This document shows, piece by piece, positions 5,088-34,172 of a stretch of 34,172 bases of DNA (position 1 is the first letter of the stretch; every line of letters starts with the position of its first letter). Under the pieces are notes generated by a model. It saw only the letters and a list, made by a program, of their open reading frames with translations. It had not been told where the DNA came from and ran no database searches. The stretch comes from a virus: positions 1-34,172 of IMG/VR virus record IMGVR_UViG_3300007734_000604; one strand, given 5' to 3'. The translations under genes and the position numbers were made by a program.

Positions 5088-5723
5088 TTAGAGAGAGGTG
5101 AACTTTGCAGTGGCGCGCTTCTCTTCGACAGAGGTCGGTGCCTTCCCGTCGCGAATCCAGCACCAGGCGTCAATCGGGTCGATGCTCTCGGCCTCAGCGA
5201 GGTCAGAGATGCACTTAATCTGCTGCGCGTCCGACAGGTCGTTCCACTTGGGCATGTTGCCCATGACGTCCGACAGGTTCAGGCTGTTGCCGTTCGTCAT
5301 GCCAGGAGCGATGGGCGACACCGCGCGAGGAGCTGCAGCTGCAACCTTCGCTGCAACAGGCGCGAGGTCCGAAAGAAGCGCCTCAAAGGTCGCAGTCTTT
5401 CCGGCGACCAGTGCGTCAGTCAGAAGGGCCTCCATCGCGCTGCTAACCTTGCGGCCAGTAATCGCGCTCTTGACCTTCTCCGCTGCAGCCGAACGCTTCA
5501 CGCGATTCAGCTCTGCACGAAGCGACGCCACCTCCGACATCGGAGCCTCCGCGTCAGCCTCTGCAACGGCCTCGTCTTCCTTCTTGGCTTCGACCTCAAT
5601 GGAGGACTCAATGCCAGGCTCTGCAGCAGCAGCAGCGGAGACGAGCTTCAGAAGCTCCTCCACCTTCGATTGGTCCAGCCCAAGCTCCGCACAGTAAGCG
5701 CCCATCATATCTGCAAACTTCAT
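5088..5723 (-). CDS. Putative scaffold protein from an in-frame internal start
   Basis: An in-frame ATG at 5723 is preceded by GGAAGG with seven bases between, a strong internal ribosome binding site in the middle of the protease gene. Initiation there would give a 211-residue acidic, helical protein equal to the C-terminal scaffold domain. This nested arrangement is known in Mu (I/Z) and lambda (C/Nu3). Here it is inferred from the ribosome binding site and domain break. Confidence 0.65.
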   Translation of the reverse strand: MKFADMMGAYCAELGLDQSKVEELLKLVSAAAAAEPGIESSIEVEAKKEDEAVAEADAEAPMSEVASLRAELNRVKRSAAAEKVKSAITGRKVSSAMEALLTDALVAGKTATFEALLSDLAPVAAKVAAAAPRAVSPIAPGMTNGNSLNLSDVMGNMPKWNDLSDAQQIKCISDLAEAESIDPIDAWCWIRDGKAPTSVEEKRATAKFTSL

Positions 5724-9600: not shown

Positions 9601-9918
9601 CATGAAGGCTTTCTCTTCTGCGCCTGGCATCGACGTGTGAGGCCAGACGACCTCCTTCGGAAGAGACGATGCTTCCGTGATTGACCAGTACACAGCCGAC
9701 GCGATGCCGGAGTGAGTCTGCATCATCTCCTGGTACTTACCAGTAACACTGCCGCCTGTGCCGCGTCGCTGGTACGGTCCGAATGTGCTGTTAGGGTCAG
9801 CGTCTGGAAAGCCGCCCTTGAAGTTCCGGACGCCCATGATGCTAACGCGAGTGTTTGCGTCAGCTACTGAAATCGGATTGCCAGACGGGTCCACTAAACC
9901 AGAATTCCGCGTCACCAT
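6664..9918 (-). CDS. Portal protein fused to a MuF-like head morphogenesis domain
   Basis: A 1,084-residue polyprotein. Residues about 1-420 look like a DUF935/Mu gp29-type portal, which forms the ring through which DNA enters and leaves the head. Residues 480-560 are an Ala/Pro linker. Residues 563-658 hold a domain with VARARDIKNKKNLSEDTVRR and FPSAGRIAWDLWGGDAGAAW. Residues about 690-780 hold a diverged second copy (RVMKLAEYFGREYP, then RGGDAGRRW). Residues 835-1000 are helical. Residues 1020-1084 resemble the C-terminal cysteine motif of Mu gpF/SPP1 gp7 proteins (C1036, C1039, C1068, C1075, C1077, with LPDPDCLGGAGRCRC). Portal and MuF are usually separate genes. The ATG at 9918 overlaps the large terminase stop. 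Confidence 0.8.
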   Translation of the reverse strand: MVTRNSGLVDPSGNPISVADANTRVSIMGVRNFKGGFPDADPNSTFGPYQRRGTGGSVTGKYQEMMQTHSGIASAVYWSITEASSLPKEVVWPHTSMPGAEEKAFMHICRQAVIEEAVVFDGTLNGANALWQYVILDAFMGFGLMMPRLLEGNSVEWYPVAHSAVMLWDPEPGTYFMRGVKFSTGQGYANVGAADLVHVVHGTATAGEWEGRSILRSLLQPYELWKQTALNAGIYNQMSWGFLDIAYDPSVSTDDIDAMNTLAGQFQDGVRKYILRPRSVDVEMKYPKGAGPDVIAQLTYYDTLIQRMLNDNLAGIGQFGSRAMAETVDDAAGRRAKAWVDSIFERASTGMFGWLAKAHGYTGKLPVMRSQSAEMTTGLEGWAAYVQGVQAGLLTKGPDDEAWGRNVIGAPEMTEEKSVDKPASLLVGSLQVAQQVLLSLQPTPTQPIPLAPEAAFLLLQSAGIQEDAAKAMVAAQMGVPSAAPVAAEPASAAPAADGTVKESLTVAPTAPETAPADVPQVVIGGNVEVPAAIGEASAFAPAAAEPPDAKMSDEVNTAPTDAMASAAERALAWRDEHGRGGTAVGVARARDIKNKKNLSEDTVRRMASYFSRHAVDKDAEGFNDGEAGFPSAGRIAWDLWGGDAGAAWAKRKVAELDNASDDMADEATLLVASMSEAPDSLIPADVMQAATAALEAHKAIAKGRTTDTEALLIARELAGGKRLSWRRVMKLAEYFGREYPRQVETKSFKSGGPSYHAYQLRGGDAGRRWVRSLLMEYAQGAHRRASRLSDRSKAGGGDLSDGEGEGFLVVGGDGKEFVNYRPLRPEEKVVSWVSLADSRAALDELLTAAILAIADEHRAAVIAGLADGWQAGERDALWNKYLQLYSAALTDGANELRKNVIEGVVDEAKLTARSGLGVTEKPSAQIDDAVKSFQAAADQQFALAAAATQKAAEIVTDRVQGEVEQAILGGADMSKFVTRITPAGLMTSTLQPRNMIESASRAAGYAQTPAALASSGLAPLVPDRVIRSSINDADRCDVCESLDGKEYNVRDFVVGTDLQLPPLPDPDCLGGAGRCRCGYIGLYD

Positions 9919-11168
9919 GTGTTCACCCTGGAAGATGTCGCCTGATTCTTCGGAATCGTGCGGACATCACGACTTACACCTAAACGCTCTGCGCCATGCC
10001 ACGCCAGAGCGTGCGCGCAAACAGCGTCATCGTTCATTGACGACGGCGCTTCGTAAACAATCCTGTTGCCGCGCATCTCGTACTCAAAGCCTTCTAGCTC
10101 CGACCGATGCACGCCGTCGATAACCGAAGTGCGCCCCTGCTGTAAAGCCATTGCGAGGCCTTCCATCAAACCCTGTTTAGAGGCAGACGAGAAGATGAAT
10201 GGTTCAACCCACACCTTCTCCTTCTCCAGCTGCTCTCCGACTGGGTCGCCCACTCCGGTCGCATCGTAAAACACGCAGGCCTTTGACTGCGGTCCGACGA
10301 TGCTTTTGATTTGCTCCACGATGCGGCTGTACGGCAGGCCATGCCACCGATGGAACTGCGCCACCTTTCGGTTCGCGTCTAGTCCGATGAGAACCGTATG
10401 GTCACGCTTCCGCGCTATGTCTAAACCCCATACCCGAACGGGAGCGCCTGTGAGCTGGCCGTTGCAGAGCTCCGCGCAGTTCCGGATGGCGTCGATGCCG
10501 AACGGATTCGCACCGTCGTCGCTGGGTTCGCAGTAATACAGCTGCCTGAACACAGAATGCGGCATGGAGCGACGCGCCATCTCGAGGTCAGCAGCGTGCC
10601 ACAGGCCGGCAGCGACAGCGTCGTCAGCAGTAAGACGATGGTACGCGAAGCCCGGCTCTCCTGCCTCTGCCTTTCTGCTCCACTGGTAATGACGATTGCT
10701 GCGGCCGCGAACGTTGCCGATGAGACGCATCCGCCCGCGCGTCGCTGTCGTCGTGCTGTACACAGCGTCAACGGCATCGTCTTTCATGCGACTGGCTTCG
10801 TCTAGGACGGCACTTGAAACGGCAGACCCGTAGAGATTATCAGGTTTATCAGCGCTCTTGAACATCCAGCGCCGTTCACCCGGGCCGATGATGCTGCGGT
10901 CGGACAGCGACTGACGGAAGCCCGGCTTTCCGCGCAGCAGCTTCCACGCTTCACGGAAGGCCATGTCTGCCTGCTGATACACTGGTGCCACCCACCAATG
11001 CTCCGAATCGGGCGCGGCCTTCAGCATCTCCGATATCTGCCAGATGATGCAGGAGAGAGTCTTCCCTGCCTTCGTCGTCGATTCAATGCAGACGATGCGT
11101 GCAGGGTCCAGAACCGCAGCGCCCTGCTTCTTATACAGGCGCGGAAGTTCAACGACGATTTCAGGCAT
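9912..11168 (-). CDS. terL: Terminase large subunit (ATPase and nuclease)
   Basis: A 418-residue packaging motor. The ATPase domain has a deviant Walker A (ESTTKAGKT, residues 29-37), a Walker B (AVLDEAS, D123 and catalytic E124) and a probable coupling motif near STTTATRG. The RNase H-like nuclease domain shows its three acidic positions in WGLDIARKRD (D250), FYDATGVGD (D302) and MNDDAVCA (D380/D381). It cuts concatemeric DNA and pumps it through the portal. Its start overlaps the small subunit gene by 8 bases and its end overlaps the portal start, so the three genes are translationally coupled. The length is slightly short for the family, but all motifs are present. Confidence 0.93.
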   Translation of the reverse strand: MPEIVVELPRLYKKQGAAVLDPARIVCIESTTKAGKTLSCIIWQISEMLKAAPDSEHWWVAPVYQQADMAFREAWKLLRGKPGFRQSLSDRSIIGPGERRWMFKSADKPDNLYGSAVSSAVLDEASRMKDDAVDAVYSTTTATRGRMRLIGNVRGRSNRHYQWSRKAEAGEPGFAYHRLTADDAVAAGLWHAADLEMARRSMPHSVFRQLYYCEPSDDGANPFGIDAIRNCAELCNGQLTGAPVRVWGLDIARKRDHTVLIGLDANRKVAQFHRWHGLPYSRIVEQIKSIVGPQSKACVFYDATGVGDPVGEQLEKEKVWVEPFIFSSASKQGLMEGLAMALQQGRTSVIDGVHRSELEGFEYEMRGNRIVYEAPSSMNDDAVCAHALAWHGAERLGVSRDVRTIPKNQATSSRVNTW

Positions 11169-11586
11169 CTTCGCCCTCTGCGCCGCGAATGCGGTCCACG
11201 ATGGGTATCTCTATCTTGAATGAGACGGCCTCTCCGCCGGTCGTGATGTCCAGCGCCTTCCGCTGCGCGACATCCAGCCCCAGGAGCTTAGACCTGCGGT
11301 CTTCAATCGCGAGCGCAGCTGCGATGGCTTTCGGGTCTCCGGCTTGAACCTTCTCCCACAGCGCCTCCATCATCGCGTCCAGGCGACCTGCCTGATTCGC
11401 CACATGCTTCTCCGCAGTGCCGACCAGCTCCTCCTTCTTCTCCTCCAGCGCCTTATGCAGCAGCTGGCATACGTAGCCACCAGACAGGCCTAGCGCCTCT
11501 CCTATCGCGCGCATGCTCTTCCCTTGCAGGCGGAGCTTCCATGCCTCTTCTTGAAAGTCCTGCTTCTCTTCGCGGGTGAAGCCCAT
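11161..11586 (-). CDS. terS: Terminase small subunit
   Basis: A 141-residue protein directly before the large terminase. Residues about 5-50 form a helix-turn-helix (KSMRAIGEALGLSGGYVCQL) for recognising the packaging site. Residues 50-110 are helical and would form the oligomer core, and the C-terminal tail would contact the large subunit. The ATG at 11586 has GGAG six bases upstream. It is the first gene of the leftward late operon, next to the divergent control region where its own binding site is likely to lie. Confidence 0.85.
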   Translation of the reverse strand: MGFTREEKQDFQEEAWKLRLQGKSMRAIGEALGLSGGYVCQLLHKALEEKKEELVGTAEKHVANQAGRLDAMMEALWEKVQAGDPKAIAAALAIEDRRSKLLGLDVAQRKALDITTGGEAVSFKIEIPIVDRIRGAEGEDA

Positions 11587-11641
11587 TGTTCGCTCCAGGT
11601 GCGTTCACGCGCGAGGGTTTGCAGGCGGCGTGGACAGGTAG

Positions 11642-11670
11642 TATGTACGCCCACAGTGCTTCTGACGCAA
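11642..11670 (-). promoter_or_regulatory. Candidate late promoter for the terminase-head operon
   Basis: On the minus strand TTGCGT (11670-11665) is followed after 17 bases by TACATA (11647-11642), about 55 bases upstream of the small terminase start. The -35 hexamer is reasonable and the -10 is weak. An inverted repeat overlaps the -35. The call is by inspection only. Confidence 0.35.
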
Positions 11671-11684
11671 GAACTAGCGCGTCA
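11663..11684. promoter_or_regulatory. Inverted repeat TGACGC-N10-GCGTCA (candidate operator)
   Basis: Two perfect 6-bp arms separated by 10 bases give a centre-to-centre spacing of 16 bases. The repeat overlaps the -35 of the candidate late promoter. It is suited to a dimeric helix-turn-helix regulator such as the LexA-like or CII-like protein encoded in this genome; which protein binds is unknown. Confidence 0.4.
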
Positions 11685-11697
11685 ATAGCGGAGGCAT

Positions 11698-11716
11698 GCG
11701 GCCTTTAGCAAGCCGC
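11698..11716. repeat. Small inverted repeat GCGGC-N9-GCCGC
   Basis: Five-bp perfect arms with a 9-base spacer in the divergent intergenic region. The purpose is not clear; it could form a minor hairpin in leader RNA. Confidence 0.35.
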
Positions 11717-11834
11717 CGCTCTTCTGGGTCCCACAGTTCCGGTCTTCATCGTCCGGAGGAGGCTCGGGAGAGTGTATGCGCTTTGACACGCTAGAAGGGT
11801 GCTTTGCCGCTCTTGACGGCCTTTGACGGAATCC

Positions 11835-12113
11835 GCCCCACTTCGCGCCCCACTACTCAAAACCTCGTTTGCGCGAGGAAGTATGCGGGCGCGGAGGTCT
11901 TTTTGGGGTGCGCCCCAAAACTCAACACACCACACCGACTATGTGCGCGGACGTGCAGGCGTGTGCGCAGGTGCGCGGGTGCGCGCGTGTATAGGTGCTG
12001 TGTGTTCAGATGTGGGGCATGTGGGGCAGTAAAGAAAGATATGAGAGTAAACAGTAAGATAGAGAGATAAACCCGCCCCAGACCGTGGGGCAACCGTGGG
12101 GCGCGAGTGGGGC
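11835..12113. other. Candidate replication origin: GTGGGGC iteron cluster with AT-rich stretch
   Basis: Seven copies of one 7-mer occur in 280 bases. Two are in inverse orientation (GCCCCAC at 11835 and 11847). Five are direct (GTGGGGC at 12012, 12021, 12085, 12096 and 12107); the last three have an exact 11-base period and the first two are part of a 9-bp tandem repeat ATGTGGGGC. Between the direct groups lies a purine- and AT-rich segment (12028-12070), a plausible unwinding element. A 20-bp hairpin sequence sits at 11901-11920 and a GTGCGC-rich alternating tract at 11941-11990. The region is non-coding, divergent and adjacent to the primase-helicase gene. Iterons with an AT-rich tract are typical of origins; they could instead be regulator or packaging sites. 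Confidence 0.6.
11901..11920. repeat. Inverted repeat TTTTGGGG-N4-CCCCAAAA
   Basis: Perfect 8-bp arms around TGCG, inside the candidate origin. It reads GCCCCAAAA on one side, sharing the GCCCC core of the iterons. It could extrude as a cruciform, act as a dimeric protein site, or serve as a hairpin in a transcript from either side. Confidence 0.6.
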
Positions 12114-12180
12114 GGATTGAGGCAGAAGGCACTTTGAGAGGGTAAAACAGGCCTATTCTGGGGGCATCGGCCGAAAATCG

Positions 12181-12206
12181 GGGAGCAGCTACCAGAAATC
12201 GCTCCC
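12181..12206. repeat. Inverted repeat GGGAGC-N14-GCTCCC
   Basis: Six-bp perfect arms in the leader just upstream of the early promoter candidate. It could be an operator or a hairpin. Confidence 0.35.
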
Positions 12207-12210
12207 GTCT

Positions 12211-12251
12211 AGTCTGGCTAGACTTGCTTTTGCACCGTTAGAGAGTATGCT
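12211..12251 (+). promoter_or_regulatory. Candidate early promoter with overlapping operator-like dyad
   Basis: TTGCTT (12224-12229) and TATGCT (12246-12251) are 16 bases apart and match sigma70-type hexamers at 4/6 and 4/6. They lie about 30 bases before the primase-helicase ATG. The dyad AGTCT-N4-AGACT (12211-12224) touches the -35, a common place for a repressor. No run of evidence beyond inspection. Confidence 0.45.
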
Positions 12252-12279
12252 CACCCTCCCCCATCATTGAGAGGACACG

Positions 12280-15033
12280 ATGAGCGAGACGAGGTGCCTG
12301 GACGCGGCCCTTCTGTACGCTTCGCGAGGCTGGCAGGTTTTCCCTGTTGGCTCCGGGAAGTCGAAGAAGGAGCCATTTACGAAGAACGGCCTGCACGATG
12401 CGACGACGGACCCACCGACGATACGCAGCTGGTGGAAGAAGTGGCCTGCAGCGAACGTGGGCATCCGGACGGGGCAGGCCTCTCGTCTGGCAGTGCTGGA
12501 CCTAGACGCGAAGGACATTCCCGTTGAAGTGCTGATGGAGGAGTGTGAGCGGCTGGCCGGTTCACCCTTCCCACGGACGGCGATGTCAAAGACGGGAGGC
12601 GGAGGTCTGCACCTTCTGTTTGAGCTGGAAGAGGGTCAGGTCGTCCAGAACTCCACGGGAAGCATCTGCAAGAATGTAGATACGCGCGGAGAGGGCGGCT
12701 ACATCGTGGCTCCTCCTTCGCTGCATAACAGCGGGAAGCTGTACGCATGGGCGGAGGAAGACGGCGACACGGGTCTGGAGTCGGAGTGTCCGCCTGCAGC
12801 TGCAACGTGGCTGCTTCGCCTGCTGAAGAGTACGGGAACGACGGTGCGTGAAGAGCGGGTTCGGAACGGCGACCTAGGCGATGTGTCCTGGGTGGCATCG
12901 GCGCTGTTCAGTCTAAGTGCGTCGATGGCATATGCGGACTGGTTCCGCGTGGGCATGTCACTGCGCGATGTGCCGGACGGTTACCAGCTGTGGATGGACT
13001 GGTCAGCGACCTCTCCGAAGTTCGATGATGAGTCAGCGAAGGTCCAGTGGGAGCGCATCCAGAAGAACGGAAAGTCGTTCATCGGTCTAGGAACGCTGTG
13101 GCATGCAGCGACGCAGGCTGGGTGGAAACCGCCGAAGAAGGTCAAGGCAGAGCCGGTCATGCCTGCATGGATGCTGGACGATGTGCCGGTATTTGAAGAG
13201 CCGTCTGCGAAGAAGGAGAAGGCTGCTGCGGAGGAGCCTGCAGCTGCGCGGACATTCGCTCCGAACCTGCCAGAAGATTACGACATCGACGAGAACGGGC
13301 GTCTGGTCCGTGTGGCGATGGTCAAGGGCAGGGACGGCAAAGAGGTAGAGAAGCATGTGCTGGTGTCAGACCCTCCCTTCTTTATCACTAAGCGCATCCT
13401 CGAGGTGACGATGGGTGTGGAGAGCCTGCAGGCGGAGTGGGACGACGAAGGCCGGAGGAAGATACAGGTGGAGTCACGGAAGGTGTTCTGCAGCGGTAAC
13501 GCTCTGTTGGGTTGCCTTGACGCTGGGATACCTGTGACCTCTGCGACCTCTGCGGAGGCAGTGCGCTACATCGGCGCATCGGAGTCGATGCTTCGCAGGT
13601 GTGCGCACCAGGAGCGGATGTCGCGGGTGCTAGGATGGCATGGCAAAGGCTTCCTGCTGGGAGAGGTTGCAATGGGCGACGCCCCTGCCTTCTTGAAGCT
13701 GGATGAGACAGGCGCGAAGGCCGTGTCGATGGTTCACCAGAACGGGACGGCGCAGGAGTGGACGAAGGCACTGCTGCCCTATCTGATTGAGCATTCCACG
13801 CTGCGAGCTCTGGTGGCATCAGCGTCTGCATCGGCGCTGCTCCCATTTCTGGGAGAGACAGCCCGGACCTTCTTCATGGACCTGTGCGGAGAGACAGGCT
13901 GCGGAAAGTCGCAGATGATGCAGGTGGCGCTGTCAGCGATTGGTCATCCTCTGGAGCTGGCAACGACCTACAGTTCCACGCCGATTGCGATTCAGAGTTA
14001 TGTCAGCATGTTCGCTCACCACACGGTGGCGATTGATGAGACGAAGAACTGGTCGGAGCGTTTAGGACCAAAGGGCCTGTCTGCTCTGGTGTACCAGCTG
14101 ATGAGCGGACGCGGCCGTGACCGTGGAACGACGGTCGTCGGAAAGTTTCAGCGGACGGAAGAGTTCAAGAGCATCATCATCAGCACATCGGAGTATCCGC
14201 TGTCGTCGATTACGGGAGACGGTGGCCTTCGCTCTAGGTGCGTGACGCTGCATGGGTTGCCATGGGGAGAGCAGTCGCCGGAGATGGCAGCGAAGATTGC
14301 GGACCTGCTGTCTCACATGTCGATGCATTATGGGCACGCGCAGATGCGGATGGTGGAACATCTGCAGGGTCTGGACGATGCCGGGAAGAAGGCACTGCGC
14401 GCATCGTGGAACCATTACCAGGCGGAGTTCACGACGCGTGCACTGAAGCTGTCGCCGGGGAATAAGGTGGCACCTCGTCTGGCTGGTTACATGGCGACGC
14501 TAGAACTAACATGGAGGCTGCTGCAGGACTTCATGGCGAAGTGGGTTGGAGAGGCCGCTTTGCCTGTGGACTGGTACGACATCATGGTCGGCACCGATGA
14601 GCTGTGGATGAAGGTGCTGTCAGCCGGCGCGAGCGCAGACCGTCCGCTTGCAGCTCTGGAGTTCGTCATGGGACTGGTGGCACTGGAGCCGGATAAGTTC
14701 GCTCCAGTGGGTGCAAAATCAGCACAGGCTCCGAACGGTGGCTGGATGGGCGTGGCGCGCGTGCAGGACGGGACGGTGTCTGAACTGGGACTGGTCGTCA
14801 GCAAACTGCGCGAGGTGTTGAAGCGTGCGGACTTTGACGCGGAAGGCATCTTCAAAGCGTGGCAGCTGCGCGGGTGGCTAGAGACTGATGCGAAGCGCCT
14901 GGACAAGAAGGCGATGGTGGCAGGCGTCAGAACGCGCTGCATGGTTTTCTCTAAAGAGGCTTTGACGGCCTCGCATGGAGAGGCGCTGCCGGAGATGCGC
15001 ATCGTGGACGACAGGTACGATGATGTCGTTTGA
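12280..15033 (+). CDS. Primase-polymerase / DUF927-type helicase fusion (replication protein)
   Basis: A 917-residue protein. Residues 1-190 form a bifunctional primase/polymerase domain: VLDLDAKD supplies the metal-binding pair D74/D76, and GGGGLHLLF supplies H111. Residues about 210-285 resemble a PriCT-type linker domain (WFRVGMSLRDV, then LGTLWHAATQAGW). Residues about 310-700 form a DUF927-type ATPase with Walker A GETGCGKS (537-544) and Walker B VAIDETKN (D586, E587). It should prime and unwind DNA at the phage origin, which probably lies directly upstream. The ATG has GAGGA five bases before it. It is the first gene of the early operon. Confidence 0.85.
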   Translation: MSETRCLDAALLYASRGWQVFPVGSGKSKKEPFTKNGLHDATTDPPTIRSWWKKWPAANVGIRTGQASRLAVLDLDAKDIPVEVLMEECERLAGSPFPRTAMSKTGGGGLHLLFELEEGQVVQNSTGSICKNVDTRGEGGYIVAPPSLHNSGKLYAWAEEDGDTGLESECPPAAATWLLRLLKSTGTTVREERVRNGDLGDVSWVASALFSLSASMAYADWFRVGMSLRDVPDGYQLWMDWSATSPKFDDESAKVQWERIQKNGKSFIGLGTLWHAATQAGWKPPKKVKAEPVMPAWMLDDVPVFEEPSAKKEKAAAEEPAAARTFAPNLPEDYDIDENGRLVRVAMVKGRDGKEVEKHVLVSDPPFFITKRILEVTMGVESLQAEWDDEGRRKIQVESRKVFCSGNALLGCLDAGIPVTSATSAEAVRYIGASESMLRRCAHQERMSRVLGWHGKGFLLGEVAMGDAPAFLKLDETGAKAVSMVHQNGTAQEWTKALLPYLIEHSTLRALVASASASALLPFLGETARTFFMDLCGETGCGKSQMMQVALSAIGHPLELATTYSSTPIAIQSYVSMFAHHTVAIDETKNWSERLGPKGLSALVYQLMSGRGRDRGTTVVGKFQRTEEFKSIIISTSEYPLSSITGDGGLRSRCVTLHGLPWGEQSPEMAAKIADLLSHMSMHYGHAQMRMVEHLQGLDDAGKKALRASWNHYQAEFTTRALKLSPGNKVAPRLAGYMATLELTWRLLQDFMAKWVGEAALPVDWYDIMVGTDELWMKVLSAGASADRPLAALEFVMGLVALEPDKFAPVGAKSAQAPNGGWMGVARVQDGTVSELGLVVSKLREVLKRADFDAEGIFKAWQLRGWLETDAKRLDKKAMVAGVRTRCMVFSKEALTASHGEALPEMRIVDDRYDDVV

Positions 15034-15202: not shown

Positions 15203-15667
15203 ATGGACATCCATACCGACATTAGTCCTGTTCTGTCTCTTATTCCCCCTACTCTGACCATCGTGGCGCAGGTCCTGCCTCTGCCGTGGAAGGTCACCTA
15301 CACGTCGGCAACGTCGTACTCTCTGACTGCAGAGCGGAAGGTTGACCTGCTCACTGACATTCCGGTGGATGATGCCCCCGGTTACCACAGTGAGTCGTGG
15401 AAGGTTCACTGCGTGGTTGTGATGGACGAGGTCCGCATCGTGCTGCAGGTCGGCACCCACGTCATGGACAATTTTGCAGGCTCCTTCTCTGCTGGCTGGA
15501 CGAATCTGACGACTGCGACGCCGTCGCGTCCGGTTCTGCGTGCGCAGCTTGAGAAGGCTCTGACGAACGAAGGCGCAGCTCACGCTGTGACCGCCGTCAT
15601 CGACGAGCTGGTGATTCTGATGCAGGAGCGTCGTGACGCCATCCGCGCGACGGTGTCCCATGACTAA
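15203..15667 (+). CDS. Unknown protein upstream of the exonuclease
   Basis: A 154-residue protein with no recognised family. The first two thirds are beta-rich (TIVAQVLPLPWKVTYTSATS, then WKVHCVVVMDEVRIVLQVG); the rest is helical (LRAQLEKALTNEGAAHAVTAVIDELVILMQ). AAGGAAGG precedes the ATG. Its stop overlaps the exonuclease start (ATGACTAA), so the two are translationally coupled. A role in recombination or replication, for example as an accessory to the YqaJ/RecT pair, is suggested by context only. A single-stranded DNA-binding fold is possible but unsupported by a motif. Confidence 0.75.
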   Translation: MDIHTDISPVLSLIPPTLTIVAQVLPLPWKVTYTSATSYSLTAERKVDLLTDIPVDDAPGYHSESWKVHCVVVMDEVRIVLQVGTHVMDNFAGSFSAGWTNLTTATPSRPVLRAQLEKALTNEGAAHAVTAVIDELVILMQERRDAIRATVSHD

Positions 15668-16733
15668 GCCTGTTCACACATACGCGAATAAGCAGGCCGT
15701 GGCTCTTCCTCCTGCGGAACATGGCAGCGCGCAGTGGCAGCTGGGTCGCGCGAACCACATCGGTGCGTCTGAGGTCGCAGCGGTTCTGGGTGTGTCAAAG
15801 TGGGCAGGCCTGCTGGACATCGTCCGGACGAAGCGTGACCTGCGCGCAGGCATCGTGGACGAGAACGATAATGACGCGATGCGCTTTGGTCGCGACTTCG
15901 AAGAGTTCATCGTCCGGGCTGGCATGCAGAAGCTTGGCATCAGCACGATGTCGTCTCCTCTTTCGTGGACGCATCCGGAGTCTCTGGCCTTCGGAGCGCT
16001 GTCTGCGACTCCTGACGCGCTCATCCTGGACGAGCGGATTTCATCTGGGTTCGGAGAGGAGCTGGTGGTTGCAACCTTCGAAGCGAAGGTAGACCGCAGC
16101 GGCGCAGACTGGCAGCAGGTGGACGAGTTCGGCTTCGCTGACCTTGAACCGGGCGATATCCGGCTGGGGTATTATCTACAAGTGCAAGCTCAATTGCTGG
16201 TCTGTGGATGCAAGAAGGGTTACCTGTGCGTGGCGACCGGCCTAGGATACGACCGCATCCACCTTCTGGAAATCTTCGAAGATAAAGAGACGCAGGCGAC
16301 CATCATCGAAGCGGCAGAGGCTGCTATCGCGTGGGTCAATGACAGCGCCGGTAGGTGGCCTGCAGCATCGGACAGCGACAGCCTGGCATCTCTGGCAGCG
16401 ACCATCCGACCGAAGGCCACCGACGACTCCATCATGGTGTCTGGTGCCGTTGAAGCAGCGATGGAAGAGTACACCGACTTGAACCGCTCAAAGAAGGTCA
16501 TTGAAGACCGGCAGGACGCGCTGAAGAAGGTCATCGTGGCATACCATGCGGAAGGTCCGAAGCTGCACACGGCTTCCGGCATAAAGTCGTCGTTCACGCC
16601 GGAGTCTTCGAAGGAGGCCTTTGACGCGAAGGCGTTCGAAGAGGCGCAGCCTGCGATGGCTGCACTGTACCGGAAGACTGTGACGCGGTCTGGCGGCGCG
16701 ACCATCACAGCGCCACGGGCGAAGAAGGGCTAG
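15660..16733 (+). CDS. YqaJ-type recombination exonuclease
   Basis: A 357-residue nuclease of the lambda-exonuclease/YqaJ family, which resects double-stranded DNA ends to give single strands for RecT. Visible motifs are the N-terminal GASEVAAVLGVSKW (residues 35-48), MRFGRDFEEFIV with the conserved acidic pair (E81, E82), FGALSATPDALI (D119) and the catalytic E-x-K in TFEAKVD (E141, K143). The C-terminal third has a helical hairpin (SKKVIEDRQDALKKVIVAY) often found in this family. The start ATG at 15660 overlaps the preceding gene's stop and is preferred to an upstream in-frame start. RecT is encoded three genes downstream. Confidence 0.88.
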   Translation: MTKPVHTYANKQAVALPPAEHGSAQWQLGRANHIGASEVAAVLGVSKWAGLLDIVRTKRDLRAGIVDENDNDAMRFGRDFEEFIVRAGMQKLGISTMSSPLSWTHPESLAFGALSATPDALILDERISSGFGEELVVATFEAKVDRSGADWQQVDEFGFADLEPGDIRLGYYLQVQAQLLVCGCKKGYLCVATGLGYDRIHLLEIFEDKETQATIIEAAEAAIAWVNDSAGRWPAASDSDSLASLAATIRPKATDDSIMVSGAVEAAMEEYTDLNRSKKVIEDRQDALKKVIVAYHAEGPKLHTASGIKSSFTPESSKEAFDAKAFEEAQPAMAALYRKTVTRSGGATITAPRAKKG

Positions 16734-16741
16734 GCCTTCGC

Positions 16742-16760
16742 GCTGGGTTCAACGCCCGGC
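16742..16760 (+). promoter_or_regulatory. Intergenic tRNA T-arm-like hairpin, copy 1
   Basis: GCTGGG (16742-16747) pairs with CCCGGC (16755-16760) with one wobble pair, closing a 7-base loop TTCAACG. It sits nine bases after the exonuclease stop, in a CTAGG context shared with the similar element at 17522. A T-rich TTTATTT follows at 16768, so it may act as a weak terminator. A second small hairpin, GTCGC-N6-GCGAC (16782-16797), precedes the next RBS. Confidence 0.4.
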
Positions 16761-16817
16761 TTCGCGCCTTTATTTCAACCCGTCGCAATGAAGCGACATT
16801 AGAACAGGAGAGAGGTC

Positions 16818-17510
16818 ATGAAGGTTCAAGAACAGTTAGCGTTACAGTGTGTGCTGATGTCTCTGCAGAACAGGGTACTTCCGAAGAAGGATGAGAACGC
16901 TGTTGAATTTGCGCATCGTCTCCACGACCTTGGCTCTGGCATCCTTGCAGAGATGCTGATGGAGGCTGATGTCCTGGACGACGGGGAGAGCGGTTCTCCG
17001 ATTTACACGGAAGCAGACGACCAGTCGGAGGAGTTTGAGCCGGAGGAGACGCTGACGGAAGGGACGCGGATTCGTTACTACATCGACGAGGACGGTCAGG
17101 AGGACTGGTACAGCGTCAGTGAGCCGTCTGCGAAGCTGGTGCCTGTGCATGCCTGCCCGCACTGCGATAAGACCTGCAGCGAAGCGGAGGTGGATGCAGT
17201 CTTCGGTTTCCGGAACATGAAGCATGTCACGTCTGAAGGTGAGTTCACTGTGGTTCGCCGGCAGAGCTGGTGCCGTGACTGCCGTCTAGAGGCACTGCGT
17301 CAGAAGCAGGCTGCGCGTCTGGAAGTGACGCAGGAGCTGAAGAAGGAGTTCGGCATTCCTGCCGGCATGCCTCCGGAAGACTTCGTCAAGCTGTTCCGTG
17401 TTATGTCTAAAGGCCGTTCGCCGTTGCAGGTGTGGCTTCAGAACATTGAGCGGACGAAGAAGTGGGGCGACATTACCTGGAGCGTGACGCCTCCGAAGAA
17501 GCCGGACTAG
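16818..17510 (+). CDS. Zinc-ribbon protein of unknown function
   Basis: A 230-residue protein with a four-cysteine zinc site: C113-x2-C116 (ACPHCDKTC) and C152-x2-C155 (SWCRDCR) separated by 35 residues. The block resembles the 'CPxC ... FG(F/Y)R ... SWCxxCR' pattern of small phage-associated zinc proteins. The N-terminal part is helical, residues 55-80 are very acidic, and the C-terminal part is basic with AARLEVTQELKKEFGIP. GGAG/AGAGG sites precede the ATG. It lies between the exonuclease and RecT genes, so nucleic-acid binding is plausible but unproven. Confidence 0.75.
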   Translation: MKVQEQLALQCVLMSLQNRVLPKKDENAVEFAHRLHDLGSGILAEMLMEADVLDDGESGSPIYTEADDQSEEFEPEETLTEGTRIRYYIDEDGQEDWYSVSEPSAKLVPVHACPHCDKTCSEAEVDAVFGFRNMKHVTSEGEFTVVRRQSWCRDCRLEALRQKQAARLEVTQELKKEFGIPAGMPPEDFVKLFRVMSKGRSPLQVWLQNIERTKKWGDITWSVTPPKKPD

Positions 17511-17521
17511 GTTAGGCCTGT

Positions 17522-17542
17522 GGCTGGGTTCGATTCCCAGCC
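17522..17542 (+). promoter_or_regulatory. Intergenic tRNA T-arm-like hairpin, copy 2
   Basis: GGCTGGG (17522-17528) pairs perfectly with CCCAGCC (17536-17542) around the loop TTCGATT, which fits the tRNA T-loop consensus TTCRANY. The following GTCCG (17543-17547) can pair with CGGAC (17503-17507) at the end of the upstream gene, giving an acceptor-like stem. No anticodon or D arm is present, so this is not a tRNA gene. It could be a tRNA-mimic regulatory RNA, an attachment-site remnant, or a plain hairpin. Confidence 0.45.
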
Positions 17543-17587
17543 GTCCGCATTCCCCTGGTCAAAGGACCTCAACGAAGGAGAGAGAAG

Positions 17588-17983
17588 ATGTCACGCATTG
17601 CAGACGAGCATTACATCAAAGGCCGCGAACGGGAGCAGGCGCTGGAGTTCGTGGAGTACATCGTGGCGTGCGCCGCGAACTACTTCCAGCGGAAGCATGG
17701 GCCTCTTCCAAAGCGCGTGGACGCTGTGGCGACTCCCAGCAGGAAGCGGAACAGCCCCCGCAAGTGGACGGAGCATCCTGTCCACGGCACGACCTTCGCG
17801 GAGATGAACCGGCAGATGTCGACTATCCGTAACACGCTGCGGACGCTTGAGAACCTGCAGAAGCAGCTGCCATGGCAGACGCGAGAAGCGGAGATTGAGA
17901 TGCAGAAAAAGTTGCTTTCCAATCTGCACCGGGAGTATGATTCTCTTCGCAAGAGCATCGTCGCTAGCGAAAGCTCCAACTAA
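17588..17983 (+). CDS. Coiled-coil protein of unknown function
   Basis: A 131-residue protein with a helical N-terminus (QALEFVEYIVACAANYFQRK), a basic Pro-rich middle (PSRKRNSPRKW) and a C-terminal coiled coil (STIRNTLRTLENLQKQLP through LLSNLHREYDSLRKSIVAS). GGAGAGAGAAG precedes the ATG, a good ribosome binding site. No family was recognised. It lies directly upstream of RecT in the same orientation. Confidence 0.75.
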   Translation: MSRIADEHYIKGREREQALEFVEYIVACAANYFQRKHGPLPKRVDAVATPSRKRNSPRKWTEHPVHGTTFAEMNRQMSTIRNTLRTLENLQKQLPWQTREAEIEMQKKLLSNLHREYDSLRKSIVASESSN

Positions 17984-18049
17984 CCAATCGCAACCCCAGA
18001 TGAAGCCGCATTTCGCGGTCTTCGTGCGTTTAGACTAAGGACATTGACA

Positions 18050-18880
18050 ATGACAACCGAAATTCAGACACAACCACGCAAAGACCTCATCGGCTGGCTT
18101 GCAGCTCCTGCGACCATGGAGGAGTTCCGAAAGGCGCTCCCCGCTGTGATGACTGCGGAGCGCTGGACGCGTTCGCTGCAGACGACTGCGCGGAAGAACC
18201 CGAAGCTGCTCTCCTGCTCTCTGGCATCCGTCCAGGCGTGCATCATGACGGCAGCGCAGCTGGGACTGGAGCCTAACGTGCAGGGCCTGTGCTACCTCAT
18301 CCCGCGCGGCAACGAATGCACGCTCATCATCGGGTACGAAGGCATGCTGGCGCTGATGCGTCGCAGCGGAGAGATTCGGAGCTTCAGCGCGAATGTGGTG
18401 CGGAAGTCGGACACCTTCAAGATTGCGCGTCACCTTGAGGTGCCGTTCATCCATGAAGAGAACCACGACCCGGACGCCGACGACAGCATGGTGGGCGTGT
18501 ACTGCTTCGTCCGCTTGAAGAGCGGAGAGAACTTCATTGAGTACATGTCTAAGAAGCAGTGCGACCAGATTCGTTCGCGCAGCCAGTCTGGTTCGTCTGG
18601 TCCGTGGAAGACGGATTACGAACAGATGTGCCGGAAGACGGTCATCCGTCGCGCGTTCCATTACCTTCCGAAGTCCACGGACATCGTCCAGGCGCTTGAG
18701 CTGCTGGACGACGAAGAGCGTTCTGGTCAGACCATCGACGCGACGCACGCGCCTCTGGAGACTGTGAAGCGTGGAGCTCTGCGTATTCCGATGGCACCTC
18801 CGGCCGCAGACGATGAGGTGGAGAAGGTGTCCATCGACGTGGACGCGACTGACGCCGACGATAATGAGCTGCCGCTGTGA
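18050..18880 (+). CDS. recT: RecT-family single-strand annealing protein
   Basis: A 276-residue RecT homologue that anneals complementary single strands produced by the YqaJ-type exonuclease. The core pattern is clear: SLASVQACIMTAAQLGLEPN, then GLCYLIPRGNECTLIIGYEG and LALMRRSGEI, and later CRKTVIRRAFHYLPKS, the usual ordering in this family. The C-terminal tail is acidic (VSIDVDATDADDNELPL), typical of SSB-interacting or regulatory tails. The ATG at 18050 with AAGGA eight bases upstream is preferred to the TTG at 18044. The next gene starts with GTG overlapping its stop (GTGA). Confidence 0.93.
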   Translation: MTTEIQTQPRKDLIGWLAAPATMEEFRKALPAVMTAERWTRSLQTTARKNPKLLSCSLASVQACIMTAAQLGLEPNVQGLCYLIPRGNECTLIIGYEGMLALMRRSGEIRSFSANVVRKSDTFKIARHLEVPFIHEENHDPDADDSMVGVYCFVRLKSGENFIEYMSKKQCDQIRSRSQSGSSGPWKTDYEQMCRKTVIRRAFHYLPKSTDIVQALELLDDEERSGQTIDATHAPLETVKRGALRIPMAPPAADDEVEKVSIDVDATDADDNELPL

Positions 18881-19353
18881 GCGTCATGCGCGGGAGCCGG
18901 ACCGCCTTTCCGGAACATAACTGCCCACACTGCGGCATGTACGCATGGGGCGCTGTGGAGTTCATCGCCTCTAACGGGTCGCAGCATTACCGCTGTGGCT
19001 GCATGGAGTGCGACAGCGAAGTCGTGGCATGGCCTGACCGCGTGCAGGAGGCTTTGCCGGGCATGTCTGACTGCAGGGTGGGAGACAGGTACGACCTGAC
19101 GAAAGAGTTCGCGCTGTCGCAGGGCATCGTGAAGCGGGTCCAGTCGCCGGAGCTTCAGTATGCAGCTGCAGAGTCGTTCTCCGGTCAGACCTGCAATGTC
19201 TGCGGCGACCCGTTCGTTGAAATGCATCATTACGCACCGAAGGAGTTCTTCGGAGTCGCGGAGGCCGATGCCTTCGGAACAGTTCCGCTTTGCAAGAAGC
19301 ATCACGACAGATGGCACCAGGTCATCAATGATTTCATGAAGAGGGCACGATGA
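18877..19353 (+). CDS. HNH-like zinc protein adjacent to RecT
   Basis: A 158-residue protein with two metal-binding blocks. The N-terminal block is a zinc-ribbon-like CPHC (C16, C19) with CGCMEC (C40, C42, C45). The C-terminal block is HNH-like: CNVCGD (C106, C109), EMHHYAP (H117, H118) and LCKKHHDRWHQ (C139, H142, H143, H147). HNH proteins cut or nick DNA. The His-His pair and CxxxH fit the beta-beta-alpha-metal fold, but the catalytic Asn is not obvious. The GTG at 18877 overlaps the RecT stop, so it is coupled to recombination. Its stop overlaps the start of the next gene. Confidence 0.65.
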   Translation: MSVMRGSRTAFPEHNCPHCGMYAWGAVEFIASNGSQHYRCGCMECDSEVVAWPDRVQEALPGMSDCRVGDRYDLTKEFALSQGIVKRVQSPELQYAAAESFSGQTCNVCGDPFVEMHHYAPKEFFGVAEADAFGTVPLCKKHHDRWHQVINDFMKRAR

Positions 19354-19697
19354 TGACGGCAGAAAAGACAGACACCTTCCCGGAGGTGCGTGAGCTCATC
19401 CGGATGCGGACCTCGCAGGTTCACGGCAGTTACTCTGCGCTGGCAACCTCCTGCGGAATGAGCAGGCAGCTGCTCTACAAGCGGGTGGAGTCAGCGACGC
19501 AGTGGCCTAACACGCACAAATGGTGGGTCTTCGTCCTGTTCCTTCACGACCCGCTGGACCGGCTTACAGTGCAGGACGCGCTGGCCGTCAGCGTACCATC
19601 GAAGGAGAAGGTTCAACACGGCCTGCATGGACAGGAGGTCGTCTGGGAAGAGTGCAAGAAGACGAAGGGGAACTGGCACCAGTGGAGGCGGGCATGA
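19350..19697 (+). CDS. CII-like helix-turn-helix regulatory protein
   Basis: A 115-residue protein with a helix-turn-helix at residues 27-46 (SYSALATSCGMSRQLLYKRV). The following region (THKWWVFVLFLHDPLDRLT) resembles phage regulatory proteins of the CII class. It probably binds DNA and adjusts early or late transcription. The ATGATG start overlaps the preceding stop, with GAGGGCACG upstream. The next gene starts within its stop codon (ATGA at 19694). Family placement is by pattern and moderate in certainty. Confidence 0.6.
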   Translation: MMTAEKTDTFPEVRELIRMRTSQVHGSYSALATSCGMSRQLLYKRVESATQWPNTHKWWVFVLFLHDPLDRLTVQDALAVSVPSKEKVQHGLHGQEVVWEECKKTKGNWHQWRRA

Positions 19698-20074
19698 GCA
19701 CTGAACAGTTAGAACAAATCGAAGAGTTGGCGCGCCGCGCCGTAACGTGCAAGCGCTGGCGGTGGATGCCGGGCATGCTGTCCAATAAGGACCTGCGTGT
19801 CACGCGATGCGACGACGACGGCTATGTAGTCGGCTACTACGAGAACATGTCGTACATTGCCGAGTGCGTGCCCGGCTCTCTCCCAGACCTCTCCGACCCT
19901 GCGACGCTAGGCTGCCTGCTGGCAATCGTGCGGGAGCGTTTCCCCAACGCAACCACGAATTGGGCAATGGTCAGTGGCGAGAGACGATGGACGGTGCATG
20001 GCGTGCGAGCCGGAGCGTATCTCTACCCAACCGAAGCCGCTGCTCTGGTCGCAGCTCTGGAGGCCGCACCATGA
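19694..20074 (+). CDS. Unknown small protein
   Basis: A 126-residue protein starting at an ATG that overlaps the preceding stop (ATGA). It has short helices at the N-terminus, then a beta-rich part with DDDGYVVGYYENMSY, and a C-terminal segment ending WTVHGVRAGAYLYPTEAAAL. This resembles small phage-encoded unknowns of the 'LexA/DUF' accessory type, but no family is identified. It ends within the start of the next gene (ATGA at 20071). Confidence 0.7.
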   Translation: MSTEQLEQIEELARRAVTCKRWRWMPGMLSNKDLRVTRCDDDGYVVGYYENMSYIAECVPGSLPDLSDPATLGCLLAIVRERFPNATTNWAMVSGERRWTVHGVRAGAYLYPTEAAALVAALEAAP

Positions 20075-20352
20075 ACATTGATTACAGTAAACTCCCGGAT
20101 GGCCAAATCATTGATGGAGCCGCGCTGGTGTCGATGAAGCTGCAGGAGGCAAAAGGCTTCATGGCCGATGTCACGACTGCCAGGTACAAGCTGGGTCGCT
20201 GCAAGAAGAGCATGCAGGAGCCTGCGTGGAGCTGCATGATGGGCGTGTACACGATGCGCATTGAGAACTTGAAAGGGTTCATGGCGGAGATGAAGCTACT
20301 GCTGCAGCGGCTCCAGCTGGAGATGAAGAGCAGAGGCATTCATGACGACTAA
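20071..20352 (+). CDS. Unknown small helical protein
   Basis: A 93-residue protein, Met/Lys-rich and mostly helical. It contains two similar segments, KLQEAKGFMADVTTARYKLG and RIENLKGFMAEMKLLLQRLQ, which look like an internal repeat around 'KGFMA(D/E)'. They suggest an antiparallel helical hairpin. It starts in the preceding stop (ATGA) and overlaps the start of the next gene (20342). No family recognised. Confidence 0.7.
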   Translation: MNIDYSKLPDGQIIDGAALVSMKLQEAKGFMADVTTARYKLGRCKKSMQEPAWSCMMGVYTMRIENLKGFMAEMKLLLQRLQLEMKSRGIHDD

Positions 20353-20824
20353 CACTAACCGTGAAGCAGCCATCGCCCGCATCATGGCCGTGGCGCAGGA
20401 ACTTGCAGACCGTGACGCTGCAGCTGCACAGGCCGTCATCGACAGGAAGCAGAAGAGGAAGGAAACGAAGAAGGCGTGGCGTCTCGCAAACCCAGAGAAG
20501 GCGAAGGAAGCACAGCGGAAGAAGCAGGCGAAGCGCGATGCCTGGAGGCGTCAGAAGTACGCGACTGACCCTGTGTATGCAGCAAAGGTCCGTCAGAAGC
20601 GCAGAGAGGAGTACGCAGCAAAACGGGAGCGTCTGGGTGCAGAGGTATGCAACGCGATTCAAAGAGCCGCTGTGAATGCGCGGAAGGCCAGCAACCCAGA
20701 GGCGTTCAGGGCAAAGGAGAGAGAGTACCGGAAGCAGCGGAGAGCGCAGCAGAAGGCGGCAGCTGTAAAGCACTGGCTTACAACTGAACCATCCGAAGAT
20801 TCCGGAGAGATGACCAGCTCATAA
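20342..20824 (+). CDS. Lys/Arg-rich putative nucleic-acid-binding protein
   Basis: A 160-residue, highly charged helical protein. Its central part (AWRLANPEKAKEAQRKKQ, then KYATDPVYAAKVRQKRREEY) is of the 'NPEK..E.Q+++..++DAW++QKY' type, which occurs beside nuclease domains in some phage HNH/GIY-YIG proteins and likely lies along DNA. No catalytic domain is present here. The 446-residue protein at 23020 has similar character (NNPERYEQYKRDAAEAYAKK), hinting at a shared origin or role. Followed by a triple 10-bp repeat. Confidence 0.7.
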   Translation: MTTNTNREAAIARIMAVAQELADRDAAAAQAVIDRKQKRKETKKAWRLANPEKAKEAQRKKQAKRDAWRRQKYATDPVYAAKVRQKRREEYAAKRERLGAEVCNAIQRAAVNARKASNPEAFRAKEREYRKQRRAQQKAAAVKHWLTTEPSEDSGEMTSS

Positions 20825-20854
20825 CCGCGCATTACCGCGCATTACCGCGCATAA
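20825..20854. repeat. Three tandem copies of CCGCGCATTA
   Basis: Copies at 20825, 20835 and 20845 (the last ends TAA) follow a 10-base period, close to one helical turn, directly between the stop of the basic protein gene and the RBS of the next gene. The period would place a bound protein on one face of the helix, so a regulator or operator array is possible. It could also be a simple slippage repeat. Confidence 0.6.
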
Positions 20855-20863
20855 GGACACACC

Positions 20864-21301
20864 ATGAGTGAAGTCATTAGAGAACTTGCAACCTACTTAG
20901 TCGAAGATGCCGTGTACCAGAGTCATGAGCTGCTGTTTCGCAAGGGAGATGCGGAACTCGCGCAACATGCTTTGAAGCGAAAGCCAACAAAAGCAGAGGT
21001 TTCAGAGGTCAGAAAAGCGTTAGAGGTCTGGGGGTCTCTGGCTGTTAAGTGCAGGAACGAAGAAGAAGGATGGGTTTCGCTCTACGCATGGGTCATTGTG
21101 CCATCATGGATGTCTAGGACTAAGCCAAAGATGCAGGAGACTTGCATTACCTTCGGACCTGTCATCAGAAACACCAGAAACAGCAGCCAAGAGAAGAAAA
21201 ACGAACTCATTGAAAAGATGGTTGCATGGACATGTGGCGATACAACAGATTTCGTCACAGGCGACGATTTGGTTGCGATGTTAAGGTCTGACAATGAGTG
21301 A
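20864..21301 (+). CDS. Unknown protein with lower GC than its neighbours
   Basis: A 145-residue protein, helical at the N-terminus (VIRELATYLVEDAVYQSHEL) and with a middle beta part (EGWVSLYAWVIVPSWMS). Codon use is visibly more AT-rich than that of adjacent genes (for example TTAGAGAACTTGCAACC), suggesting recent acquisition. It is preceded by the triple repeat and by AAGGACACACC. That RBS context is identical to the one before the 56-residue protein at 24413. It overlaps the start of the resolvase gene by 8 bases. No family was recognised. Confidence 0.7.
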   Translation: MSEVIRELATYLVEDAVYQSHELLFRKGDAELAQHALKRKPTKAEVSEVRKALEVWGSLAVKCRNEEEGWVSLYAWVIVPSWMSRTKPKMQETCITFGPVIRNTRNSSQEKKNELIEKMVAWTCGDTTDFVTGDDLVAMLRSDNE

Positions 21302-21803
21302 CAGAACCTCCTTCATCTACTCCGGTGTGGACCCGGGAAAGAACGGCGCAATCGCCAGCATCGACCAGGACGGCGCAGTCCTGAAGATTAGCCGCTTCAA
21401 AGACGCGGACACGGAAGGCCGCATCGCCCTGGTCATCGCAGACCACTTCGCGGAGCTGGACGACGGCATCCACGCAGCGACCATTGAACGGGTGGGAGCG
21501 ATGCCGAAGCAGGGCCTTTCAAGTACGTTCACTTTTGGAAGGGTGTATGGGGAGGCGTGGGCTGGCCTCTTACTCTCAAAGGCCGGAGGCGTCCGCGTCC
21601 ATGCAGTCACACCATCCATGTGGCAGCGCGACATGTACCTTCCGAAGCGAGACTGCGTGACGAACCATAAGCGCACCTTGAAGGAAGAGGCGGAGAAGCG
21701 GTTCGGACGGAAGTTCATCCTCGCAGAAGCCGACGCGGTCTGGCTGGCCGAATGGTCGCGCGTGAAGGGACCGTGGAGCCGTGGCATGCGGGCGGAGGGT
21801 TAG
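21294..21803 (+). CDS. RuvC-like Holliday junction resolvase
   Basis: A 169-residue nuclease of the RuvC/RNase H-like fold. Motifs are GVDPGKNGAIA with the first metal ligand (D13), ATIERVGAMPKQG with the acidic E65, and near the C-terminus AEADAVWLAEW with the last acidic cluster. Phage proteins of this type resolve branched recombination intermediates before packaging. It complements the YqaJ and RecT proteins encoded upstream. AAGGTCTGACA precedes the ATG. The next gene starts immediately after its stop (TAGATG). Confidence 0.82.
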   Translation: MSDRTSFIYSGVDPGKNGAIASIDQDGAVLKISRFKDADTEGRIALVIADHFAELDDGIHAATIERVGAMPKQGLSSTFTFGRVYGEAWAGLLLSKAGGVRVHAVTPSMWQRDMYLPKRDCVTNHKRTLKEEAEKRFGRKFILAEADAVWLAEWSRVKGPWSRGMRAEG

Positions 21804-33882: not shown

Positions 33883-34172
33883 CTATCCCTTTTTACTGGA
33901 GAACAGCTCCGCCATCCGCGTCGCCGCCTTCGTCTTCTGGTCGTCGTAATTCTTCTGACCCTCTGCGACCTCGTACTGAACGAACTCTGCCAGCTCCAGC
34001 TGCGTGTGCGTTACCTGCTCCAGCGTAATGACTGGAGAGCCGCGCGCAATCCACTTCGACATCTTCAGTGCGCTCCAGAAGCCCGCAGGCTCCATCAGAA
34101 GCACAGGGCACGTCACAGGCAGTGGCTCCTTATACTCAAAGTCCAGACCCTGCCTGTAACCCATCGTGCAGC
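33883..34172 (-). CDS. Tail assembly chaperone, -1 frameshift extension, part 2 (C-terminal end)
   Basis: This is the C-terminal part of the -1 frame extension. Bases 34046-34172 duplicate 1-127. It ends with TAG at 33885-33883, three bases before the tape measure start ATG at 33879. That spacing is typical of the GT-type frame ending against the tape measure gene. The segment is acidic and helical (LELAEFVQYEVAEG) with a lysine-rich end (SSKKG). By analogy with lambda gpGT, the extension would be the part that binds the tape measure; this is inference. It could alternatively be translated alone from the ATG at 34164 (equal to 119). Confidence 0.75.
   Translation of the reverse strand, partial: CTMGYRQGLDFEYKEPLPVTCPVLLMEPAGFWSALKMSKWIARGSPVITLEQVTHTQLELAEFVQYEVAEGQKNYDDQKTKAATRMAELFSSKKG
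34046..34172. repeat. 127-bp terminal overlap (copy 2 of 2)
   Basis: Exact duplicate of bases 1-127. Removing one copy restores the continuous minus-strand reading frame from the tail chaperone region (224 down to 1) into 34045 down to 33883. Confidence 0.93.

Follow-up and report, generated by a model that had tools for sequence, protein, structure and literature searches.

What is the role of a dense cluster of short repeats that lies between two divergent genes of a phage genome? The window, i.e., the whole stretch of DNA that was analysed, is a genome record of 34,172 bases of which the ends (1–127 and 34046–34172) are identical over 127 bp; the assembly is therefore probably circular and complete. 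The genome is that of a phage that encodes a terminase large subunit of its own (terL, 9912–11168) and has a long late operon. A leftward operon starts from terS (11161–11586) and terL, and a rightward operon starts from the gene of a 917-residue protein (12280–15033). The two divergent genes are separated by 693 bp (11587–12279), inside which the repeats are found. A sequence-only reading had described seven copies of GTGGGGC at 11835–12113, two inverted and five direct, as a candidate iteron origin. All seven exact copies were recovered, at 11835(−), 11847(−), 12012(+), 12021(+), 12085(+), 12096(+) and 12107(+), the last three with an exact 11-bp period, and the whole genome contains a single further copy, at 17462. 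The AT-rich purine segment, the 20-bp palindrome and the adjoining Prim-Pol/DUF927 gene that had been pointed out are also present, and are listed below.

One explanation of the cluster is chance, or low-complexity drift, in GC-rich intergenic DNA. The motif is GC-rich, as is the genome, and its count over the whole window is ordinary when taken alone (12/100 shuffles reach 8). However, when the 279-bp region was shuffled 2000 times with dinucleotides preserved, no 7-mer ever occurred seven times, the largest number being 5, and elsewhere in the genome no stretch of 279 bp matches the cluster in 7-mer count. Furthermore, the positions of the sites are kept across initiators that are 43% identical, and all relatives have analogous arrays in the corresponding position. 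Chance clustering is refuted by this conservation, and its probability is regarded as negligible.

The repeats are better described by the 6-bp core TGGGGC than by the 7-mer, because in the relative L003 a T replaces the leading G of two of the seven copies. This core occurs nine times in 11587–12279 and 19 times genome-wide. Two of the nine copies are additional to the earlier list: one at 11912(−), inside the palindrome, and one at 12075(−). The parts of the candidate origin and its two neighbouring genes are as follows.

11161–11586, minus strand: terminase small subunit (HTH), the divergent neighbour, upstream of terL.
11835–11841, minus strand: outer iteron of the left half-origin; conserved in L003 and found at the same place and in the same orientation in L008.
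11847–11853, minus strand: outer iteron of the left half-origin; conserved in L003 and L008.
11901–11920, no strand: 20-bp palindrome TTTTGGGGTGCGCCCCAAAA, the inner iteron of the left half-origin, read from the sequence.
11979–11993, plus strand: alternating purine-pyrimidine run GTGCGCGCGTGTATA at the origin centre, assessed by run-length shuffles.
12012–12018, plus strand: first iteron of the inner pair; the 9-bp pair is kept in L008 (598+, 607+).
12021–12027, plus strand: second iteron of the inner pair, 9 bp from the first; the pair is kept in L008.
12028–12074, plus strand: AT-rich, purine-rich spacer (68% AT), the highest-AT window of the intergenic region and a candidate melting site.
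12075–12080, minus strand: first core of the outer array, TGGGGC (inverted); the 11-bp phasing is kept in L003 and L008.
12085–12091, plus strand: iteron of the outer array, from the sequence and the L008 comparison.
12096–12102, plus strand: iteron of the outer array, 11 bp further on, from the same evidence.
12107–12113, plus strand: iteron of the outer array, another 11 bp on, from the same evidence.
12280–15033, plus strand: protein with Prim-Pol, PriCT_2, DUF927 (MCM-like AAA+ helicase) and a C-terminal HTH_56, the proposed iteron reader (Pfam; SaPIbov1 Rep 8tch and Cch 5dgk).

The iterons of the window thus fall into two opposed sets, of which the left has fewer sites than the right. The palindrome in the left set holds two facing cores, TGGGGT at 11904 (+) and TGGGGC at 11912 (−), and an inner TGGGGC (−) is found at the equivalent position in L008. 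It is the right set that contains the AT-rich stretch, the L008 counterpart of which is 84 bp long and 67% AT. The centre between the two sets is GC-rich (39% AT) and carries the alternating run, and a run as long as this was seen in 8/500 shuffles. The central gap of most relatives contains similar CGCGCG-TATA alternating runs, up to 26 bp in L056, and the 500-shuffle test was positive for most lineages, L060 being an exception. The run is possibly prone to form Z-DNA or a starting point of melting. The DNA that separates the array from the initiator gene also contains a short hairpin followed by T's, resembling a terminator (12207–12223).

To place the cluster in a wider context, a family of phages was gathered by a scan with the terminase large subunit, and 23 loci had a readable interval between terS and the replication gene. 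A family of 6–8-bp repeats lies between terS and the divergent replication gene in all 23, L080 being the weakest case. The repeats come in five dialects: TGGGGC, TGGGAAG, GGGAACA, GTAACA and TGGGGAC. The TGGGGC dialect comprises the window, L003 and L008, and the GTAACA dialect spans two lineages (D1 and D2). A DNA-level search of the region against annotated phages found no match.

In most comparisons the cores vary less than their surroundings. Between the window and L003, which are 95% identical, 0/54 core positions are changed versus 36/639 elsewhere (Fisher p 0.05). The corresponding numbers are 1/48 versus 191/458 for L056–L059 (p 9e-10) and 1/56 versus 202/604 for L072–L075 (p 1e-8), while in the L059–L071 comparison changes in the cores were not rarer than in the background. 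The L008 initiator is 43% identical to that of the window and, outside the sites, the intergenic DNA can hardly be aligned, yet L008 keeps the order, orientation and phasing of the sites: inverted outer sites, an inner inverted site, the 9-bp pair, the AT-rich spacer and an inverted core, after which direct cores follow at spacings that are multiples of 11 bp. The sequence-only reading had counted a lack of conservation in relatives among the findings that would refute it, and core, order and spacing are indeed kept. L008 also has three tandem copies of a 28-nt unit (CCGGAACGCGTAGTGGGGACCCCCGGAC) near terS (5266–5349), outside the iteron array.

The gene next to the array suggests which protein reads it. 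The protein encoded at 12280–15033 matches Pfam DUF927 with an E-value of 6.8e-29, and the HTH_56 at its C terminus scores 27.6 bits, just above the cut-off of 26.2 (42.4 bits in L008). A profile made from the DUF927 and C-terminal part of the family matches SaPIbov1 Rep (8tch_A) over nearly its full length with an E-value of 3e-62, in an alignment that extends to the C terminus, and it also matches Cch of SCCmec (5dgk) with an E-value of 7e-28. When an AlphaFold model of the initiator (pLDDT 76.7) was searched with Foldseek, the top two matches were again SaPIbov1 Rep 8tch (E 1e-19) and Cch 5dgk. The structural Z-scores were 27.3 for 8tch and 28 for Cch, compared with about 13 for MCM proteins, and the rmsd of 12–14 Å shows that the domains are placed differently. 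The DUF927 initiator of the window is a homologue of SaPIbov1 Rep, to which Cch, also a DUF927 protein, is reported to be related (PMC7581432). SaPI Rep recognises iterons via its C-terminal domain (PMC7581432). Behind the initiator gene of the window lies a recombination module (15633–21803) with a YqaJ/RecE-like exonuclease, RecT, an HNH protein and a RuvC-like resolvase.

Four of the dialects have, beside the array or one gene away, a gene for a DUF927 protein that ends in an HTH_56 domain; in the remaining dialect the contigs stop short of the initiator position. In the D2 lineage, a gene for a ResIII/SNF2-type helicase is inserted between the array and the DUF927 initiator (L060 3003–4727, L062 3028–4740, L066 3023–4735). 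A relative of this helicase adjoins the TGGGGAC array in L009 (178–2049). The initiator of L011 runs across contig ends.

The dialects make it possible to ask which protein the repeat sequence follows, and here two further explanations have to be weighed. The first is that the repeats form a packaging site (pac or cosB-like), to which the HTH of TerS binds and brings TerL to the DNA. The repeats of lambda cosB adjoin terS, and in the window terS is the next gene (start codon 11586), its product having a weak HTH match. However, the TerS of the window is about equally close to that of D2 (47–49% identity) and that of L008 (50%), and TGGGGC is used in L008 and not in D2. Likewise, D1 and D2 share GTAACA even though their TerS proteins are 41–45% identical. 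The initiators of D1 and D2, in contrast, are sisters (tree support 1.0), with about 55% identity in DUF927 and about 52% in the C-terminal domains, and those of dialects B (TGGGAAG) and C (TGGGAACA, also given as GGGAACA) are sisters as well. The repeat sequence does not track TerS, and a terminase pac or cosB site was rejected on this ground.

The second explanation holds that the repeats are operators for a regulator of the divergent early (primase) and late (terS) promoters, such as the small HTH-like protein encoded at 19350–19697, or that the initiator represses its own gene besides starting replication. The region does lie between divergent genes, and homologues of the small protein were found in 6/6 relatives tested. 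This protein, possibly a regulator, has no Pfam or PHROG match and is about 25–43% identical in the six related genomes. However, it does not follow the dialect either, as the D2 protein is 38% identical to that of the window and 32% identical to that of D1, and a search of the region for sigma-70-like promoters found none. Trees of TerS and of the small HTH-like protein put D2 nearer to the group of the window, and TerL gives a third arrangement, some branches of these three trees having low support. Judged from the sequences compared, the repeat dialect tracks the DUF927 initiator rather than TerS, TerL or the small HTH protein, which argues against both the packaging site and the small-protein operator.

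Phages outside the family bear on the same two explanations. In stretches of 8 kb from Thermoanaerobacterium, Faecalibacterium, Ruminococcus, Roseburia and Klebsiella phages and from unannotated gut phages, the densest 7-mer window is at the 3′ end of the DUF927 gene, away from terS. The repeats behind these genes include ten copies of GGTAACC, ten of GGTGAAA, seven of GTAACAA, eleven of GAACCAA and nine of GGTTACA, and Roseburia phage Jekyll has four copies of GTAACAA. The signal is weak or ambiguous in two of the nine stretches, one from Anaerostipes AC844P1 and one from a contig that breaks off at this point. HTH_56 was found in five of the six such proteins scanned, that of Klebsiella not being recognised. 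In the latter phage (P12620-1, L123 4845–5140), the eleven GAACCAA copies are directly behind the DUF927 gene. No terS is annotated in the 8-kb stretch of these phages, which likewise speaks against a packaging site, an explanation given a very small probability. In Firmicutes phages the array is behind rather than before the DUF927 gene, and the operator explanation is considered improbable, though autoregulation by the initiator through the repeats may be a second role. The sequence-only reading took iteron origins to be uncommon in phages with Prim-Pol/DUF927 replication. This view is not supported, as nearly every DUF927 locus examined has an adjacent array, and on these sequence comparisons iterons beside DUF927 genes look like the rule.

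The dialects differ in sequence, and the spacing of their sites follows one plan. From one side, an outer array is followed by 43–68 bp, a pair 7–9 bp apart and 95–117 bp; then come an inverted pair or single site, 43–68 bp and the other outer array. Typical spacings are about 50 bp, the 9-bp pair, about 105 bp and about 50 bp, and L008 is a stretched version of the plan. The template was matched by 12/17 loci with probabilities of 0.004–0.037 per matching locus, which are only descriptive, because the template was drawn post hoc and some outlying sites were omitted in L074, L076, L079 and L011. Dyad symmetry of the site positions alone was significant only for L059 (D1), D2 and Epona. In the window it was not (6/9 sites, reached by 24% of random sets), and the claim is therefore one of a conserved spacing plan and not of perfect dyad symmetry.

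Taken together, the conserved core, order and spacing, the homology of the adjacent protein to the SaPI initiator and a dialect that tracks this protein favour the iteron origin. The cluster is very probably a phage replication origin of the SaPIbov1-type (DUF927) initiator helicases, with iterons that would be read by the adjacent DUF927 protein. The HTH_56 at the C terminus of the initiator would bind the TGGGGC iterons. These would act as two half-origins in inverted orientation, with a centre of about 100 bp between them. In either half, the inner site or 9-bp pair would be separated from an outer array, phased at about 11 bp, by a spacer of about 50 bp, which is AT-rich in the right half. 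The outer and inner sites of one half may position one MCM-like hexamer, such that the two halves load two opposed hexamers for bidirectional replication. Melting is predicted in the AT-rich spacer or in the centre, and the fused Prim-Pol would prime the first strands.

Skew had been suggested as a check on the origin. The cumulative GC skew does have a minimum at 11571, but this proves little because gene direction changes there, and the third-position skew per gene showed no clean terminus. Weighing against the origin reading are also the marginal HTH_56 score of the window, the smaller number of sites in its left half, its GC-rich centre where an AT-rich one might be expected, and the L059–L071 comparison of the cores. 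A LexA-like protein, named earlier as a possible binder, was not found among the ORFs scanned, which were part of all ORFs.

How does this candidate origin relate to known ones? Lambda-type origins are likewise phage origins in which iterons adjoin an AT-rich region. Lambda O merely recruits the host helicase, and its iterons are inside gene O. Here, the proposed reader is itself a helicase (DUF927 AAA+) and the array lies outside its gene, so a lambda-type O origin was rejected. The closer likeness is to SaPIbov1 Rep (8tch) and PICI origins (PMC6092414, PMC7581432), which have a homologous DUF927/MCM-like initiator with a C-terminal DNA-binding domain and several short iterons in two sets, with an AT-rich stretch, adjoining the initiator gene; for SaPIs this comparison rests on a solved structure and papers rather than on a SaPI sequence. 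The origins of phage-inducible islands are described as lying immediately 3′ of the initiator and as having, without exception, an AT-rich region between two iteron sets (PMC6092414). The array of the window and its family relatives is 5′ of the initiator gene, which speaks against the origin reading as far as SaPIs serve as its model, and the locus is therefore not filed as a PICI replicon. A PICI satellite, which would rely on a helper phage to supply its capsids, was also rejected, since the 34-kb genome has its own terL and long late operon. Other differences are the Prim-Pol fused to the helicase, the iteron TGGGGC and the GC-rich centre with its alternating run. As a complete tailed phage with a 5′ location beside terS and a different place for the AT-rich stretch, the window has a variant of the SaPI/PICI-type origin and not an identical one. 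Cch of SCCmec (5dgk) has the same DUF927 and HTH_56 core, but it lacks a fused Prim-Pol (a chain of about 600 residues) and belongs to a chromosomal cassette. Origins of SCC elements were not identified before, and one was tested for another helicase, Cch2 (PMC7581432).

In 2018 the organisation of island origins was stated to be common to no other known bacterial replicon (PMC6092414). As far as the open literature goes, the tailed phages described here appear to share this plan, contrary to that statement. It is about an even bet that one fixed-distance blueprint, which loads two opposed MCM-like hexamers, is common to the DUF927-HTH_56 initiators of tailed phages, satellites and chromosomal cassettes, and that the iteron sequence varies freely with HTH_56 to give mutually orthogonal initiator-origin pairs. 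Constant spacings combined with a variable repeat sequence suggest how two hexamers get placed on DNA, a question that is common to archaeal and eukaryotic MCM. Matching initiators are available for most of the five dialects, which makes it possible to test directly how specific a self-loading, MCM-like helicase is. The analysis provides an entire phage family, apparently uncultured, with candidate replication origins. It further suggests that complete tailed phages infecting distant hosts, too, make use of the SaPI/PICI origin plan. Satellites and phages with a common initiator type could, therefore, compete for each other's origins.
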